The position numbers and the translations under genes were made by a program. The notes under the pieces were generated by a model, which saw only the letters and a program-made list of their open reading frames with translations, did not search any database and was not told the DNA's origin. DNA of 64,000 nucleotides from an uncultured Verrucomicrobiota bacterium (GTDB lineage Bacteria > Verrucomicrobiota > Kiritimatiellia > Kiritimatiellales > Tichowtungiaceae), in contig CAIKGD010000046.1 of the NCBI GenBank assembly GCA_903826865.1, positions 1-64,000 on the forward strand, read 5' to 3'. Of the stretch, positions 30,704 to 49,721 are shown one piece after another (within the stretch, counting starts at the first letter, position 1; every line of letters begins with the position of its first letter).

Positions 30704-31962
30704 TGTCTTGCCCGTTCTGCCAGCTGTTCAATATCGCCCGCACCGATAATCAGCAGCACATCGCCCGTTTGCAGTTCACACTGAATATCCTGCCATGTCG
30801 CTTCCAATGTTTGGAAAAATTTAAGCCGACTGTTCCAATCCTTGGAAAAACAGTTCATCAAATCTTCGCTGGTGCCGCCCGTGAGCGGTTCCTCTGATGC
30901 CGCATAAACCGGCAGCAGCCACAGTTTTTCCAGCCCCTGAAAAGCGGGCGGGAAATCAGCCATCAGCGCCTTGGTGCGCGTGTAGCGGTGCGGCTGAAAC
31001 ACGCCAAGAAGCCGTTTCGGCTTCAACGTTTCACGTGCCGTCTGAATCAGTGTACGGATTTCTGTCGGATGATGGGCGTAATCGGAAATGATCGTATATT
31101 CGCCTTCGTAAACTTTTTCGAAACGCCGCCGTACCGGCTTAAGACCTGCCAGGGCTAAAGTTATCTCATTTCCGGGTTTCCACTGTTTGCAGACTTCAAT
31201 GGCTGCAAGTGCATTCAAACGGTTATGACGCCCTGGCAATGAAACTTGAAACTTGAAATCTGAAACTTGAAATCCATAAGGCACCGCCTTGGAATTGTTT
31301 TTGCAGAGTCGTGATGCGGCAGGGTCTTCAGCGCAATAGACGATCTTCTGTTTCGTATTGGCGATGAAGGTTTTGAAGCACGCTTCAAACGCCTCAACAC
31401 TGGCGTGGTGTTCCATGTGGTCATATTCAATATTGGTAATGACCGCGATGTCGGGATGATAGTTGACGATGGTGCCGTCGCTTTCATCGGCTTCGACCAC
31501 CATGACCGGACCGTCTTTGGCGACGCCGTCAAAGCCAGGCACTTCACCGCCGATGCAGTAGCCGCAGCCGAGAATCTGCGCGATCATTGAAGTGGTGGTG
31601 GTCTTGCCGTGTGTGCCGCTGACGGCAATCGTAATGCGGTCGCGCAAAAGCGCGGGCAGAACTTCGCCGCGGCGACTGACCGGCACCGCCGCGTTCGCCA
31701 CCTCAGGATGAGTGTCCGGAACGGCCGTGGTGCGGATGATCCAATCAACATCGGATAGATGCGCCGGATCACGGCCGATTAAAACCGGAATTTCTTTTTC
31801 CCGAAGCCATACGGTCTGCCGGTTTTCCTGTTCATCACAACCGGTAACGCAGTGTCCGCGCTCTTTAAGCAGTAACGCGAGACCCGCCATGCCGATACCG
31901 CCAATGCCGATCATGTGAATGCGGCGGGGTTTTGAAAGCATGCTGTCTATTTGCAGCCGCAT
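30700..31962 (-). CDS. murC: UDP-N-acetylmuramate--L-alanine ligase MurC
   Basis: Adds L-Ala to UDP-MurNAc with ATP. It has 420 residues, shorter than the usual 430-490. The Rossmann start is IHMIGIGGIGMAGLA, the P-loop is AVSGTHGKTTTTSMIA, and the domains continue with VVEADESDGT, LPGRHNRLNALAAIEV and SDYAHHPTEIR. The loss lies in the central domain: after VPYGF only QVSDFKFQVS is present before LPGRHN, where homologs have about 30 more residues. That segment is encoded by a 7-nt tandem repeat. The start could be 31962 or an ATG at 31941; neither has a clear ribosome site. The 31962 start overlaps murG by 16 bp. Confidence 0.92.
   Translation of the reverse strand: MRLQIDSMLSKPRRIHMIGIGGIGMAGLALLLKERGHCVTGCDEQENRQTVWLREKEIPVLIGRDPAHLSDVDWIIRTTAVPDTHPEVANAAVPVSRRGEVLPALLRDRITIAVSGTHGKTTTTSMIAQILGCGYCIGGEVPGFDGVAKDGPVMVVEADESDGTIVNYHPDIAVITNIEYDHMEHHASVEAFEACFKTFIANTKQKIVYCAEDPAASRLCKNNSKAVPYGFQVSDFKFQVSLPGRHNRLNALAAIEVCKQWKPGNEITLALAGLKPVRRRFEKVYEGEYTIISDYAHHPTEIRTLIQTARETLKPKRLLGVFQPHRYTRTKALMADFPPAFQGLEKLWLLPVYAASEEPLTGGTSEDLMNCFSKDWNSRLKFFQTLEATWQDIQCELQTGDVLLIIGAGDIEQLAERARQ
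30802..30816. repeat. TTCCAANNNTTGGAA palindrome inside murC
   Basis: TTCCAA, TGT, TTGGAA. On the coding strand it encodes FQTLE near the C-terminus of MurC. Confidence 0.7.
30833..30847. repeat. TTCCAANNNTTGGAA palindrome inside murC, second copy
   Basis: TTCCAA, TCC, TTGGAA, 16 bp from the copy at 30802. It is read in a different frame here (SKDWN), so the DNA palindrome and not the peptide is conserved. Confidence 0.7.
31241..31275. repeat. Five-unit 7-nt tandem repeat inside murC
   Basis: The units are GAAACTT, GAAACTT, GAAATCT, GAAACTT and GAAATCC, perfectly in register. On the murC strand they encode most of FQVSDFKFQVS, a peptide with a seven-residue period. It occupies the place of a longer central-domain segment in other MurC proteins. 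Confidence 0.85.
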
Positions 31963-33020: not shown

Positions 33021-34297
33021 TTGAAAAATCCATGTTTTTTAAGCTCTCCGGGAAGATACAGCGAACCGGTGAAACAGACCAGCCGCTTTTTACCGGCATC
33101 GAGCCAGTCGAGAACAGGCTGAGGAGTTTCAACCGGCGTAATTCCCAGTCCGATCCGTTTTCCGGCCTCCGCAATTTCATCCGCTTTCATGGCGCGGTCG
33201 CCAGGCAGCGTGAACGCCCAGGCTTTTTCAACGGCGGGTTTGAGCGTTTTAAGGATTCCCTCAACGTCTTTGTCCTTCATGAAGCTGAAGAAAAAGCCGT
33301 TTCCAAACGTTGGAAAAGTTTCTTCCAGAGTTTGAAAAAGTGCGCGGGCACCGCATACATTGTGCGCACCGTCATAGAGTACCGGCGGCTTCGCCTGCAA
33401 GAGCTGGAACCGTCCCGGCCATTTGACGGCTTCAAGCCCCCTTTTCATCTGGAGACGGATGTTCTCAACATCGGCAAGGTCTTCGAGCGCGGCGACCGCA
33501 ATGCCGCAGTTTTCGAGCTGAAAACTGCCGGCCAGCGGCAGGCGGATATTGTGGTAGTCGTGACCGCTGGCTTCAATATTGACGAGCTGGTCGTCACGCC
33601 GCCTTTCCAGACATTGGAAAAATGCCGCCTCGGCGCTTCCGAGAATTGGAACTTTCTTTTCTACCGCCTCGTTGTAGATGACGGCCTCCGCCTCGACAGG
33701 CATCGGGCCGCAGATGACGGGCGCGCCGGATTTGATGATACCGGCCTTTTCCCAGGCGATTTTTTCAATGTCCGCACCGAGATATTCCGCGTGATCAAAG
33801 TCGATCCGGGTGATTACGGAAAGAACCGGCTGGATGACATTGGTGGCGTCCCATCGTCCGCCCATACCGGTTTCAATGACGGCATAATCCGTTTTTTCGC
33901 GTCTGAAATATTCAAAGGCCATAGCCGTGGCGATTTCAAAAAACGTGGCCGGGCGGGTGTCAAGCGTTTGCGCGGCGGTTTCAACATCCGCAATGAGCTG
34001 CTCAAGAACAGGATCGGCAATGTCGCGTCCGTTGATGCGAAAGCGTTCATTGAAACGAAAGAGATGCGGCGAAGTGTAAAGGCCGGTTTTAAAACCGGAG
34101 GCGCGCAGCACCGATTCAATCATGGCGCAGACAGATCCCTTGCCGTTGGTTCCGGCGACATGAATACATTTGAGGTTTTTATGCGGATTGCCCAGCTTTT
34201 CGAGCAGTGCGGCGGTGACTTCAAGACCGGGCGTGATGCCGTGTGCTGTGCGGGCAAAGAGAGCGGCAATAGAATGTTCAATTTTCTGGTGCATCAT
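33017..34297 (-). CDS. folC: Folylpolyglutamate synthase/dihydrofolate synthase
   Basis: A Mur-ligase-fold enzyme that adds Glu to dihydropteroate or folates with ATP. It has 426 residues from the ATG at 34297. Motifs are HVAGTNGKGSVCAMIESVL (P-loop), TSPHLFRFNERFRING, VIETGMGGRWDATN and YDGAHNVCGARALF. The upstream frame to 34345 is translated repeat DNA (34298-34325) and is excluded. It carries three copies of the TTCCAA-type palindrome. It lies between accD and murG; accD-folC adjacency is common. Confidence 0.93.
   Translation of the reverse strand: MMHQKIEHSIAALFARTAHGITPGLEVTAALLEKLGNPHKNLKCIHVAGTNGKGSVCAMIESVLRASGFKTGLYTSPHLFRFNERFRINGRDIADPVLEQLIADVETAAQTLDTRPATFFEIATAMAFEYFRREKTDYAVIETGMGGRWDATNVIQPVLSVITRIDFDHAEYLGADIEKIAWEKAGIIKSGAPVICGPMPVEAEAVIYNEAVEKKVPILGSAEAAFFQCLERRRDDQLVNIEASGHDYHNIRLPLAGSFQLENCGIAVAALEDLADVENIRLQMKRGLEAVKWPGRFQLLQAKPPVLYDGAHNVCGARALFQTLEETFPTFGNGFFFSFMKDKDVEGILKTLKPAVEKAWAFTLPGDRAMKADEIAEAGKRIGLGITPVETPQPVLDWLDAGKKRLVCFTGSLYLPGELKKHGFFK
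33301..33315. repeat. TTCCAANNNTTGGAA palindrome inside folC
   Basis: TTCCAA, ACG, TTGGAA. A degenerate neighbour (TTCCAG, AGT, TTGAAA) follows at 33323-33337 and encodes FQTLE. Confidence 0.7.
33605..33619. repeat. TTCCAGNNNTTGGAA palindrome inside folC
   Basis: TTCCAG, ACA, TTGGAA. It encodes FQCLE on the folC strand. Confidence 0.65.
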
Positions 34298-34363
34298 GCG
34301 TATTCCGTACTGCGTATTTCGTATTCGGTTCTTTTCATTACGCAATACGTATTACTCGTTACG
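34298..34363. repeat. Inverted pair of 7-nt repeat arrays without a gene
   Basis: The left array (34298-34325) has four units: GCGTATT, CCGTACT, GCGTATT, TCGTATT. The right array (34336-34363) has CATTACG, CAATACG, TATTACT and CGTTACG, close to the reverse complement of the left. About ten bases separate them. The right array includes the accD stop codon and the left one abuts the folC start. Confidence 0.75.
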
Positions 34364-46421: not shown

Positions 46422-46850
46422 TTAAGCGTAAAACTCTGCGGCGGATAAAATTCCGATCCCGGCCGCTTCCAGCACGGCGGAAGCGCGCTCGATGTTGTCG
46501 AAGCGAATGACAATCAGGGCATTTTTCTTCTGCTTACAGGCGAAGGCGTACATGTACTCGACGCTCAATCCGCCAGCCTCAGCCGCCTTAAGAATTTTTT
46601 CAAGCCCGCCGGGTTCATCGGCCACTTCAATCGCCATGACATCAGTGGTATTTACGGCGAAGCTGGCGGCCTCGAGCACTTCTTTGGCGCGCTGCCATTC
46701 GCGGACGATCAGGCGCAGGATGCCGAATTCACGCGTATCGGCCAGCGTCATGGTGACGATGTTGATTCCGGCTCCCGCCAGTACTTCACAAACGCGGCTT
46801 AGATGCCCCGGACGGTTTTCAAGAAAAACAGAGAGCTGTTTCAGTTTCAT
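46422..46850 (-). CDS. Tandem ACT-domain protein
   Basis: A 142-residue protein of two ACT domains: QLSVFLENRPGHLSRVCEVL at about 4-23 with INIVTMTLADT, and EVADEPGGLEKILKAAEAGG with VEYMYAF in the second half. ACT domains bind amino acids. Stand-alone double-ACT proteins are commonly encoded next to phenylacetate-CoA ligase and indolepyruvate oxidoreductase genes, as here. It may sense an aromatic amino acid. It is separated from paaK by the four-helix-bundle element. Confidence 0.88.
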   Translation of the reverse strand: MKLKQLSVFLENRPGHLSRVCEVLAGAGINIVTMTLADTREFGILRLIVREWQRAKEVLEAASFAVNTTDVMAIEVADEPGGLEKILKAAEAGGLSVEYMYAFACKQKKNALIVIRFDNIERASAVLEAAGIGILSAAEFYA

Positions 46851-46876
46851 CTTTCACTCCTTTCAGTCGTGAATAT

Positions 46877-46910
46877 CTAAACTCTAATTTCTAAATTCTA
46901 AATTCTAAAC
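46877..46910. repeat. Left array (7-nt units) of four-helix-bundle element 1
   Basis: Units CTAAACT, CTAATTT, CTAAATT, CTAAATT, CTAAAC. Its reverse complement matches the array at 47316 in 29 of the first 32 positions by eye. Confidence 0.85.
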
Positions 46911-46943
46911 AAACTCAAATGACAAATGATCCAAATTAAATAC

Positions 46944-47294
46944 TTAAATTCCGTCTCCCGATTTCGTGACAATCGCACCAAAAATATGGGTAAGTTCTTT
47001 CGCTTCCTGTTCCAGCCGAATCCGCTCATCCTCAAGGCCTTCTGCGAGAATCAAACGTAACCAAAGACGCGATTCCTTGGCTTCCTTACGGCAAATCTTC
47101 GCGCGCATCAGAAAATCCTTTTTGCTCAACGCCTCGTTGGCTTCAATATAATTGGCCGCCACAGATCCGGATGAACGGACAACCTGCTTACAGTCTTCGA
47201 TGTTCGGAATATCTTTCACCACCCTGCGCACAAACGCCCGGACGGCCTTAGCAAACTCAAAAGTTCTCTCCTCCAGATCGTAGGACTGACTCAT
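46944..47294 (-). CDS. Four-helix-bundle protein (S23/IVP family), copy 1
   Basis: A 116-residue, all-helical protein of the family first seen in 23S rRNA intervening sequences (TIGR02436/PF05635), related in fold to the accessory protein Avd of diversity-generating retroelements. Family features are DLEERTFEFAKAVRAFV, SSGSVAANYIEANEALSKKD and KICRKEAKESRLWLRLI. The function is unknown; Avd-like proteins bind nucleic acid. It lies between paaK and the ACT gene and is enclosed by inverted 7-nt repeat arrays about 400 bp apart. Same strand as the operon. Confidence 0.9.
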   Translation of the reverse strand: MSQSYDLEERTFEFAKAVRAFVRRVVKDIPNIEDCKQVVRSSGSVAANYIEANEALSKKDFLMRAKICRKEAKESRLWLRLILAEGLEDERIRLEQEAKELTHIFGAIVTKSGDGI

Positions 47295-47315
47295 CGGGTT
47301 CCTGACGTTAGACTT

Positions 47316-47348
47316 GTTTAGAATTTAGTTTTTAGAAATTAGAATTTT
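47316..47348. repeat. Right array of four-helix-bundle element 1
   Basis: Repeats of TTTAGAA/TTTAGTT/TTTAGAA type, an inverted copy of 46877-46910. It lies just upstream of the four-helix gene and just downstream of paaK. Confidence 0.85.
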
Positions 47349-47359
47349 CGATAATCGGA

Positions 47360-48670
47360 CTATTGGTTCCGATTATCGATGACCCGTTTTGCTTTGCCCT
47401 CACTGCGCGCAATGGTGTGCGGCTCAACCAGACGAACCGGCACACGCAAGCCGGTTATATGGTCAATCGCCTGCGCCAGCCGCAACTGAATAGATTCCAG
47501 TTCGCTAATGCGGTCGCCAAACATTTCCTTCGTGACTTCAACCTGCACTTCGATCTGATCAAGCCCGCCCTTGCGGGTCAGTAGAATCTGATAATGCGGC
47601 ACCGCTTCCTCCACTGACAGCAGCGCGGCTTCAATCTGCGACGGGAAGACATTTACGCCGCGAATGATCATCATGTCGTCACTGCGCGAGCGTATGCGGC
47701 TGATACGGCGGATGGTGCGGCCGCAAGCACAGCGTTCCGGAATAATCGAGGTGATGTCGTGCGTGCGGTAGCGGATCATCGGAAAGGCCTGTTTGGTGAG
47801 CGTGGTGATAATCAGCTCACCCTCCTGTCCGTCCGGAAGGACTTCGCCGGTTTCCGGATCAACAATTTCGATCAGAAAATGGTCTTCAAAAATATGAAGC
47901 CCCGCCTGTTCGCAGCATTCGATGCCGACACCGGGACCGATGATTTCCGTCAGCCCGTAAATATCAAACGCCTTGATGCCGGATTCGCGCTGGATATAGG
48001 CGCGCATCGCTTCCGTCCACGGTTCCGCGCCGAATACGCCGACTTTCACACCAAGCTCTTTGAAGGAAATTCCGCCGGCGTTCACCTTCTCAATCAGGTG
48101 AATAAAATAGCTGGGCGTGCAGCAGATCGCCGTAACGCCGAAATCCTTCATCACCAGAATCTGGCGCTCCGTGTTGCCGCCGGAGATCGGAATGACCGTC
48201 GCGCCGAGCCGTTCCGCGCCGTAATGCGCGCCGAGCCCGCCGGTAAACAGGCCGTAGCCGTAGGCGTTTTGCAGCACATCACCGGCGTGCATACCGGTGG
48301 CGACAAACGAACGCAACATGACACTGCTCCAGACCTCCAGATCGTCCCGGGTGTAGCCGACCACAATCGGCTTGCCGGTCGTTCCGCTGGAAGCGTGCAG
48401 ACGGACGACTTCTTTCATCGGCACCGCGAAAAGTCCGTAGGGATAGGTGTCGCGCAAATCCGTCTTTTGGGTGAACGGCAGTTTCGCCACATCCGCGAGA
48501 CTGCGGACATCCGCCGGTTTCAAACCGCGCTCATCCATACGCTGCCGGAAAAGCGCCACGTTGTCATAACAGCGCTGAACCGTTGCTTTCAGCCGCTGCA
48601 ACTGCAAAGTCCGCAACTCACCGGATTCCATATAATCCGGAATACTCTCAGGATGAATGTTCGTTTCCAT
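47360..48670 (-). CDS. paaK: Phenylacetate-CoA ligase
   Basis: Activates phenylacetate or a related aryl acid with ATP and CoA. It has 436 residues. Adenylation motifs are RLHASSGTTGKPIVVGYT (P-loop), DIYGLTEIIGPG and the C-terminal CACGRTIRRISRIRSRSDDM with RGVNVFPSQIEAAL, the standard ANL-family pattern of this enzyme. Encoded after iorA and iorB, which make aryl-acetyl-CoA from arylpyruvates. The set suggests reversible amino-acid fermentation or salvage of aryl acids to make aromatic amino acids. Confidence 0.93.
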   Translation of the reverse strand: METNIHPESIPDYMESGELRTLQLQRLKATVQRCYDNVALFRQRMDERGLKPADVRSLADVAKLPFTQKTDLRDTYPYGLFAVPMKEVVRLHASSGTTGKPIVVGYTRDDLEVWSSVMLRSFVATGMHAGDVLQNAYGYGLFTGGLGAHYGAERLGATVIPISGGNTERQILVMKDFGVTAICCTPSYFIHLIEKVNAGGISFKELGVKVGVFGAEPWTEAMRAYIQRESGIKAFDIYGLTEIIGPGVGIECCEQAGLHIFEDHFLIEIVDPETGEVLPDGQEGELIITTLTKQAFPMIRYRTHDITSIIPERCACGRTIRRISRIRSRSDDMMIIRGVNVFPSQIEAALLSVEEAVPHYQILLTRKGGLDQIEVQVEVTKEMFGDRISELESIQLRLAQAIDHITGLRVPVRLVEPHTIARSEGKAKRVIDNRNQ

Positions 48671-48692: not shown

Positions 48693-49193
48693 CTATTTTC
48701 GGATCAAATCATCTTCACCGTTGTTGCCGGCGGGTGTGTTTGTGAGTGTGTGCGTCTTTGGGTGTGTGAGTCGTTCGGAAAGCAGATAGTCACAACTTTC
48801 TTCTTCCACCTTTGACTGAAAAGTACACCATTGATCCGATTGATCAATCATACGAACCAGCCCGCCGCTGATTTCATCATACACTGCGTCCAGCGCCTCA
48901 AAATATTCCTGCGTGATGTAACCGCACCGGAGTGCAAATTCAAGCCATGATTGAGTCTCCGCCGCTTCGCTGTCAGCATCTGTCAGTTTACTGCGGAAAT
49001 GAGCCGGATAACGGCGTTTGCGCCACGCTTCGGCAATCTGTTCGCAAACCGACCGGGAGGAACGGCGAACCTGATCGGTAAGTGAATACCGTTCTTCCGG
49101 CGGCCAGCGTTTTGACAGTTCAAAAATCTGCATAGCGGCATCAAAAGCCGTCCGATACACCCGCAAATCTCTGAAATGTTTCACCAGACTCAT
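48693..49193 (-). CDS. Four-helix-bundle protein (S23/IVP family), copy 2
   Basis: A 166-residue paralog of the protein at 46944. Residues 1-120 carry family features (FRDLRVYRTAFDAAMQIF, RRSSRSVCEQIAEAW, ADSEAAETQSWLEFALRCG). The end (LTHPKTHTLTNTPAGN) is translated from a short-repeat array, so the array has been read into the reading frame. The ATG at 49193 fits the family start; a GTG eight codons earlier is less likely. It lies between iorB and paaK in the same orientation. Only weak similarity to copy 1, so this is not a recent duplication. Confidence 0.88.
   Translation of the reverse strand: MSLVKHFRDLRVYRTAFDAAMQIFELSKRWPPEERYSLTDQVRRSSRSVCEQIAEAWRKRRYPAHFRSKLTDADSEAAETQSWLEFALRCGYITQEYFEALDAVYDEISGGLVRMIDQSDQWCTFQSKVEEESCDYLLSERLTHPKTHTLTNTPAGNNGEDDLIRK
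48731..48773. repeat. Left array of four-helix-bundle element 2
   Basis: GT-rich degenerate 7-nt repeats (reverse complement: ACTCACA, CACCCAA, AGACGCA, CACACTC, ACAAACA). They are inside the C-terminal coding end of the four-helix gene and are inverted relative to 49206-49250. Confidence 0.7.
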
Positions 49194-49205: not shown

Positions 49206-49250
49206 CCGCCCACTCACTCACAAACCCGCATACTCACACACTCTCCCTCA
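49206..49250. repeat. Right array of four-helix-bundle element 2
   Basis: CA-rich degenerate 7-nt repeats (ACTCACT, CACAAAC, CCGCATA, CTCACAC, ACTCTCC). The iorB stop codon lies at its outer edge. Confidence 0.7.
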
Positions 49251-49721
49251 ACTCTTTCTCCCCAGCTCAAAGGCGGATTCATTCACTGCATACCCTTTTT
49301 CCGGCAGCGCTTCATGAAGCACGTTCAGCCAGACTTCGACCGGAATATCCAGATGCCGGCTCAGCAACCCGAGCATAGCGATGTTAAGGGCCCTTTTATT
49401 TTCCAGTTTTGCCGGATCAATCGCCGCCGGTTTTAAAATCACGGTGCCCGGCGAGCAGTCCGCCTCATAAAGCGGAAACTGGTCGTCCTGAAAAAGCACC
49501 AGGAAATTAAGCGCACCCGCCGGAACCATCGGACTGAACACTTTTTTACCGAACCGCACGTCGCTGCAAATGGAGCCGCCACGCTGGCTCATGCCATGCA
49601 CTTCAGCTTTTTTCACATCGAACCCCTGCCGGAAAAATACTTCGGCGAGTATCTGTGTTGATTTCAGAACACCCATGCCGCCCAGCCCGGCGATTTTAAT
49701 ACTGGTTACTTTGTCACTCAT
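49248..49721 (-). CDS. iorB: Indolepyruvate ferredoxin oxidoreductase, beta subunit
   Basis: The gamma-domain subunit that binds CoA in the oxidative decarboxylation of arylpyruvates to aryl-acetyl-CoA. It has 157 residues, shorter than the usual 180-200. Motifs are IKIAGLGGMGVLKSTQILAE and KKAEVHGMSQRGGSICSDVR. The stop codon lies at the edge of a repeat array, so a small C-terminal loss by insertion is possible, although ESAFELG is a normal family ending. Starts 5 bp after iorA. Confidence 0.92.
   Translation of the reverse strand: MSDKVTSIKIAGLGGMGVLKSTQILAEVFFRQGFDVKKAEVHGMSQRGGSICSDVRFGKKVFSPMVPAGALNFLVLFQDDQFPLYEADCSPGTVILKPAAIDPAKLENKRALNIAMLGLLSRHLDIPVEVWLNVLHEALPEKGYAVNESAFELGRKS

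Follow-up and report, generated by a model that had tools for sequence, protein, structure and literature searches.

The question raised by this locus is whether a small gene and the inverted heptanucleotide arrays on either side of it form one inserted unit and, if so, what moves that unit. The window, that is the whole stretch of 64,000 nucleotides analysed here, comes from an uncultured Verrucomicrobiota bacterium. A first-pass annotation of its sequence had described an S23/IVP-family gene bracketed by heptamer arrays, and had read gene plus arrays as a small element dropped between paaK and an ACT gene. The arrangement was confirmed. The sole gene enclosed by the arms of this unit (element 1, 481 nt; Table 1) matches PF05635, the S23 family of 23S rRNA intervening-sequence proteins, with 40.7 bits against a cut-off of 33.8. 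TRF calls a period-7 array of 4.9 copies at 46872-46910 and, together with a peak at lag 7, shows element 1 to carry tandem 7-mers of the STRR type. Local alignment of one flank with the reverse complement of the other recovers a 34-nt inverted match (AAATTCTAATTTCTAAAAACTAAATTCTAAACAA versus AAACTCTAATTTCTAAATTCTAAATTCTAAACAA) in which 31 of 34 positions agree and 3 are mismatched. The alignment score is 53, compared with 21 for the best mismatched locus and 27 for the best among 300 shuffles; the arm limits in Table 1 are approximate and were taken by reading the sequence. As single-stranded RNA, element 1 folds with its arms paired (z = -3.8). It thus shares with rRNA intervening sequences (IVS) an S23-family ORF and complementary ends capable of forming a stem. 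Its location is not in 23S rRNA: its neighbours are a paaK-type gene (AMP-binding enzyme, 47360-48670) on one side and a paired-ACT-domain gene (46422-46850) on the other, and Rfam gave no match at six loci, that of element 1 among them.

Table 1. Features of the two S23 units of the window.
Feature	Positions	Strand	Description
S23 gene, element 1	46944..47294	-	116 aa; ORF and PF05635 match; four-helix-bundle family
5' arm, element 1	47314..47348	-	Heptamers upstream of S23, AATTCTA type in coding sense
3' arm, element 1	46872..46912	-	Heptamers downstream of S23; inverted copy of the 5' arm
S23 gene, element 2	48693..49193	-	Between POR gene and paaK; PF05635 match, 103 bits
5' arm, element 2	49206..49251	-	GTGTGAG-type heptamers in coding sense; coordinates read from sequence
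3' arm, element 2	48730..48772	-	Inside the end of the S23 reading frame; coordinates read from sequence

A perfect 12-bp inverted repeat with an 8-nt loop (47348-47379) immediately adjoins the outer side of the 5' arm of element 1, where paaK ends. Short perfect hairpins occupy the same position in several other units of the genus, and similar ones are found at other gene ends in the genus, with or without S23 units. We dropped this outer hairpin as a component of the unit: its enrichment in the genus over shuffles (p 0.002) disappears against control windows, there is none GTDB-wide, and the hairpins are also present at empty sites of relatives.

A second unit, element 2, is located about 1.4 kb from element 1. 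Its inverted arms score 31 (best mismatched pair, 23) and are built on a heptamer unrelated to that of element 1; the C-terminal tail of its S23 protein is encoded by the 3' arm, and the orthologous unit in another genome (G007) has longer arrays. Elsewhere in the window, back-to-back inverted heptamer arrays at 34290-34360 (GTATTCCGTACTGCGTATTTCGTATT / ATTACGCAATACGTATTACTCGTTACG) have no gene between them and make up a gene-less hairpin, and a TGAAACT array of 4.7 copies at 31240-31272 has no inverted partner and apparently lies within a coding sequence, MurC-like by inspection.

The genome to which the window belongs (2.64 Mb, 98% complete) contains 18 PF05635 matches, 16 of them above the cut-off. 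Nearly all of these 16 genes have an upstream heptamer array and an inverted downstream partner, with a heptamer specific to the locus, and the flanks of the two sub-threshold matches contain no arrays. We extended the comparison to 79 different S23 genes found across the 14 genomes of the genus. The arm score was that of the best local alignment of the upstream flank with the reverse-complemented downstream flank, and the threshold was set at 22. The enrichment of inverted flanks that the first-pass annotation had proposed to look for was found: 71% of the 79 genus units reach the threshold, compared with 3.5% of mismatched pairs (p 7e-37, Mann-Whitney) and 3.5% of 170 control ORFs located at these loci (p 2e-26, Mann-Whitney), p values that are too small given the non-independence of orthologous units, while the effect is still large. 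Same-strand matches between flanks are much rarer than inverted ones (16%), and the autocorrelation of the genus flanks peaks solely at lags 7, 14 and 21 (0.36, 0.35 and 0.32, against about 0.26).

For the GTDB-wide scan a six-sequence S23 alignment was used, an earlier 21-protein alignment being too diverse for scanning, and it yielded 80 named loci, 79 of them usable. The threshold is reached by 82% of these 79 loci and by 8% of mismatched pairs, with a lag-7 peak of 0.40; both this set and that of the genus are biased to S23 proteins near the query or PF05635. The loci come from Bacteroidota, Pseudomonadota, Acidobacteriota, Verrucomicrobiota, Planctomycetota, Cloacimonadota, Chloroflexota, Bacillota, Nitrospirota, Omnitrophota and Actinomycetota, a patescibacterium and archaea (ANME-1, Heimdall), among others. 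Two of the three loci from ANME-1/Methanophagales and one of the three from Cloacimonadota stay below the threshold, as do the Nitrospirales locus and some ten more. In a plasmid collection the S23 matches are mostly cyanobacterial, and all eight cyanobacterial plasmid loci examined have inverted arrays (GGGAACA, GGGAGTA, AGTCAGG, GGTGACA and similar), which resemble the cyanobacterial short tandemly repeated repetitive sequences (STRR). Thus, the arrangement of arm, S23 gene and inverted arm surrounds about 70-80% of the sampled bacterial S23 genes and some archaeal ones, with a heptamer that differs at almost every copy. Carriage by phages was discarded, as just 13 relatives were found in 2.9 million viral contigs, compared with at least 583 in genome contigs.

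Some of these loci deserve mention for their surroundings. On the Anabaena sp. 90 plasmid pANA02 an S23 unit (L366) separates cas6 from cas4 in a type I-D CRISPR operon; S23 proteins have been listed as CRISPR-associated (PMC10910872), perhaps through insertions of this kind. Units lie directly downstream of rmlB both in the genus (L003) and in the gammaproteobacterium Vreelandella (L301), which reflects either a common site preference or the sampling of polysaccharide operons. In another genome (G025:C1:917-928 kb) two 88%-identical copies of an S23 gene that is split into two frames are located 7 kb apart (L319, L320).

Insertion is indicated by three lines of evidence that are independent of one another. 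The first comes from empty sites, where we measured the gap between the upstream stop codon and a fixed motif within the downstream gene. The paaK-ACT gap is 533 nt here and 20 nt in three related genomes, in agreement with the insertion proposed in the first-pass annotation; the last codons of paaK are replaced in the window, and therefore element 1 entered at the very end of that gene. Between the V-ATPase B and D genes the gap is 458, 458, 513 and 467 nt with an S23 unit and 36, 42, 41 and 35 nt without one, and between purA and uppS it is 446, 446 and 452 nt compared with 55, 55, 62 and 63 nt. The site of element 2 (POR-paaK) is filled in two genomes (G000 and G007) and empty in two others (G033 and G011). 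A ruvB site was set aside because its upstream gene differs too. Most empty sites are without arrays, and two purA-uppS sites have a bare array of another heptamer. No target-site duplication was seen by eye at three sites, whose junctions are too diverged, and the genome comparisons caught no transposition event itself; a pair of 91%-identical S23 genes in Vreelandella, considered as a candidate, proved to be a duplicated rmlB-rmlD segment.

The arms also travel with the gene. Between units at different sites, the mean 4-mer cosine of the arms is 0.07-0.11 when the relative bit score of their S23 proteins is below 0.5, 0.47 at relative scores of 0.6-0.8 and 0.57 above 0.8. Different-site pairs with a relative score of at least 0.5 have a mean cosine of 0.211, which none of 2000 unit permutations attained (permutation mean 0.096, maximum 0.142). 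The closest different-site relative of the element 1 protein (L114), 70% identical, has AATTCGA-class arms, and the AGTGACG class is common to Acidobacteriota and Verrucomicrobiota loci; exceptions to the rule that arm class follows S23 exist (L120 versus L126 is one). In different-site relatives the DNA similarity spans the gene, in several pairs the arms as well, and then stops; in one such pair (L006/L043) it also takes in the next gene. Conversely, five of 18 sites filled in more than one genome hold S23 units whose proteins are less than about 40% identical and whose arms differ accordingly, each unit having its own, and the CAGAGGT and GTGTGGG classes are both found at both of two sites, in different genomes. 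Because there are empty sites, because close S23 genes share arms across sites and because unrelated S23 genes occupy common sites, we consider it supported that gene and arms constitute one inserted unit.

It could be argued that the arrays are ordinary host microsatellites in which S23 genes happened to land. Period-7 arrays are indeed known in many bacteria, from passages of two reports (PMC4692102, PMC4679880), and are common away from S23 in this genome: in 461 kb they exceed those of periods 5, 6, 8, 9, 10 and 11 several-fold (25 arrays compared with 0-3 for the other periods at the middle threshold). Eight of 30 listed period-7 arrays lie within 500 nt of an S23 gene and about three-quarters lie away from it, which counts against reading them as parts of a unit. 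Landing within an array would, however, give direct halves, and inverted pairing is far commoner than direct; moreover, arm class tracks S23 similarity across sites and even phyla, and most empty sites lack an uninterrupted array of the same heptamer. We therefore regard this explanation as hardly credible. The flank enrichment of S23 genes is very strong; most sampled arrays of the genome, on the other hand, have no adjoining S23 gene, and possession of arrays is thus not exclusive to it.

The S23-free arrays are bare, pair with an inverted second array as a short hairpin (34290-34360 in the window; C27:24030) or lie within coding sequence, and many belong to heptamer classes that S23 units also have. 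They may descend from units whose gene was lost, or arrays may also have spread alone; arrays could have a life of their own. Array density is 6.8 per 100 kb in this genome with its 16 S23 genes and 2.0-3.5 in other genomes with 2-13, data that are only suggestive of a simple correlation with S23 copy number, which we did not retain. In three other genomes the V-ATPase site holds a small PF13366 (GxxExxY) gene instead of an S23 unit. PF13366 (GxxExxY / PDDEXK_3) genes are also flanked by inverted repeats, of about three 9-10-nt units of the CCACGAAATA CACAAAATA CACGAAAG type (G007:C135, G012:C233, G001:C1:1701179 and L238-L261), and 20 of their own flank pairs have an average score of 38, compared with 17 for mismatched pairs (p 1e-12). 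These loci may form a sister class of small units that carry a nuclease-like gene.

The arms themselves are polar and variable. Read in the S23 sense, the 5' arm is G-rich and C-poor GTDB-wide (0.33 versus 0.11), G exceeding C in 56 of 62 loci (p 3e-11), and therefore the polarity of the arms with respect to the gene is fixed; stops also occur in 2.1 of 3 frames of the 5' arm, which is partly due to this composition. The arms lengthen by slippage: in Vreelandella the 3' arm consists of 94 perfect GTGAGTT copies and the 5' arm of about 30 imperfect ones. At orthologous sites they drift, and in several ortholog sets both arms switched class together. The gltB-gltD orthologs have GGCCTGA, GGCNNCA or GGCTTTA, each in both arms, with S23 proteins 60-85% identical throughout. 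This co-variation is clear in the gltB-gltD, purA-uppS and L015 groups and modest over all pairs (p 0.015, pairs non-independent); a first automatic arm finder gave equal similarity within elements and between orthologs, and a finder based on inverted alignment a weak difference. Translation of the 3' arm can also give the following protein an N-terminal extension, as in UppS (L012:1838-1880, MAAPIDNQKSPIAN...) and RmlD (L301:3582-3640, MNSEHTHLTPHTSRL...).

These properties bear on a second explanation, in which the unit acts in RNA processing: the transcript would fold the S23 cistron into a stem loop excised by RNase III, the need to fold would keep the arms complementary, and the unit would be tolerated inside operons and move rarely if at all. 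The Coxiella IVS provides both the architecture and the excision, and the paired fold of element 1, the strong strand polarity of the arms and the tendency of units to lie co-oriented in operons (from crude gene calls) are in its favour. On the other hand, arm mismatches do not favour G-U pairs: no excess of G-U-compatible changes was found in the genus (85 versus 70) or GTDB-wide (93 versus 124), so that the search for RNA-level selection through G-U-tolerant mismatches was negative. In addition, the 3' arm is translated into UppS or RmlD in some units and is therefore not always excised. We consider RNA processing unlikely as the main explanation.

As to the protein, comparison of coding sequences indicates that S23 is under strong purifying selection and that it does something: dN/dS is about 0.04-0.16 in ortholog or close pairs with unsaturated dS, and third codon positions account for 1304 of 1950 differences. 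The S23 family is very common, and we found no known function for it in the literature. Among solved structures, 2GSC (XCC0516 of Xanthomonas campestris) and 2RLD come nearest. The S23 family is related to that of Avd (PMC10053308), and the unit could on this ground be a DGR-type reverse-transcription element with S23 in an Avd-like role. The Avd profile PF22296 gives a weak match to the element 2 protein (25.2 bits, under the cut-off of 40) and none to that of element 1. The link to reverse transcription suggested by the first-pass annotation did not hold: no RVT_1 match was obtained in 12 of the 14 genomes of the genus, this 98%-complete one with its 16 S23 genes among them, or in 8 of 20 other S23 hosts. 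Dependence on a resident reverse transcriptase is thereby largely refuted, and a DGR-type element is very improbable.

A further candidate is a Y1 (HUH) transposase that recognises hairpins and mobilises the units in trans, as RAYT does REP elements. Y1_Tnp was detected in all 14 genus genomes, and the arms are capable of forming hairpins in single-stranded DNA. Nevertheless, no Y1_Tnp match was obtained in 4 of the 20 other hosts, among them Geobacter sp. AOG1 and Vreelandella sedimenti, which have four and three S23 matches above the cut-off, and the units share no end motif, each having its own heptamer. A general dependence on Y1 is accordingly not supported, and we judge this mechanism quite unlikely. 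Neither enzyme can be generally required for the units to persist, although ancestral or imported activity may have operated in hosts where they now go undetected.

We consider it probable, then, that arm, S23 gene and inverted arm together make up a single small mobile (selfish) element that is mobilised in trans or by the host, with S23 serving the arms. Mobilisation in trans or by host replication and repair is well supported, and the action of S23 on the folded arms is what we infer from the arrangement. The unit would insert mostly at gene junctions within operons, usually along the direction of transcription, as the observed tendency suggests, and would then pass on vertically. Its movement is presumably slow, because many units are old residents at orthologous sites. 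The heptamer runs of the arms would lengthen and shorten by replication slippage and the heptamer drift between lineages; since both arms changed class together, something probably homogenises or co-selects them. Some copies would lose the S23 gene and leave bare arrays or hairpins. The S23 four-helix bundle most likely binds to the folded arms that flank its gene and protects or delivers them. Cutting and copying would be supplied by trans enzymes or by host replication and repair, because S23 is alone between the arms, with no nuclease, transposase or polymerase, and because reverse transcriptase and Y1 are not in every host. Those rRNA intervening sequences that contain an S23 ORF may be an equivalent unit caught inside 23S rRNA.

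A broader proposal, to which we give slightly less than an even chance, is that S23 units are a very widespread class of prokaryotic mobile element with no known mobility enzyme, of which the scattered heptamer repeats in cyanobacteria, Xanthomonas, Geobacter and others are largely gene-less derivatives and the rRNA IVS a special case. Similarly tentative, and just short of an even call, is the definition of this class by terminal inverted arrays with a copy-specific heptamer that co-evolves with S23. On this proposal the S23 family gains a context, as cargo and probably servant of its own inverted heptamer arms, a single origin is offered for several families of heptamer repeats that were described independently in different bacteria, and the nature and spread of rRNA intervening sequences become directly testable.

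Among known systems, tandem 7-mers that are mostly intergenic, like the arms described here, are found in the cyanobacterial STRR and, according to passages of the respective reports, in the GGGAATC repeats of Xanthomonas, often in inverted pairs (PMC4692102), the TAACTGA repeats of Beggiatoaceae (PMC4679880) and the paired, often inverted heptanucleotide motifs of Geobacter metallireducens (PMC2700814). Unlike the arrays studied here, the last three are described in those passages without mention of S23; Xanthomonas nonetheless bears S23 (2GSC), and cyanobacterial plasmid S23 genes carry heptamer arrays. With DGR the units share a related four-helix-bundle family, that of Avd, in a genome without a detectable reverse transcriptase. 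With MITEs and insertion sequences they have in common a short unit, inverted ends, empty sites and probable gene-less derivatives, and they differ in having no transposase, no fixed terminal sequence and no target duplication that we could find. The closest precedent is the 23S intervening sequence of Coxiella burnetii, located in helix 45 of the rRNA, which has an S23 ORF, judged to be decaying, GACAGAT tandem heptamers just before the gene in a copy number that varies between strains, and a 28-bp terminal inverted repeat that forms a stem cut by RNase III (PMC4990558). The first-pass annotation knew of no description of this architecture. In view of Coxiella that is too strong for the architecture as such, and it stands for the free-standing, many-copy form: searches of open-access papers found no report of S23 genes outside rRNA enclosed by inverted heptamer arrays, and there is a strong case that such a unit, present in many phyla, is undescribed. 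The S23 units thus resemble the Coxiella sequence in their S23 ORF, tandem heptamers and terminal inverted repeats, and differ from it in lying between protein genes, in reaching up to 16 copies in a genome, with heptamers specific to each copy, and in encoding a conserved protein.
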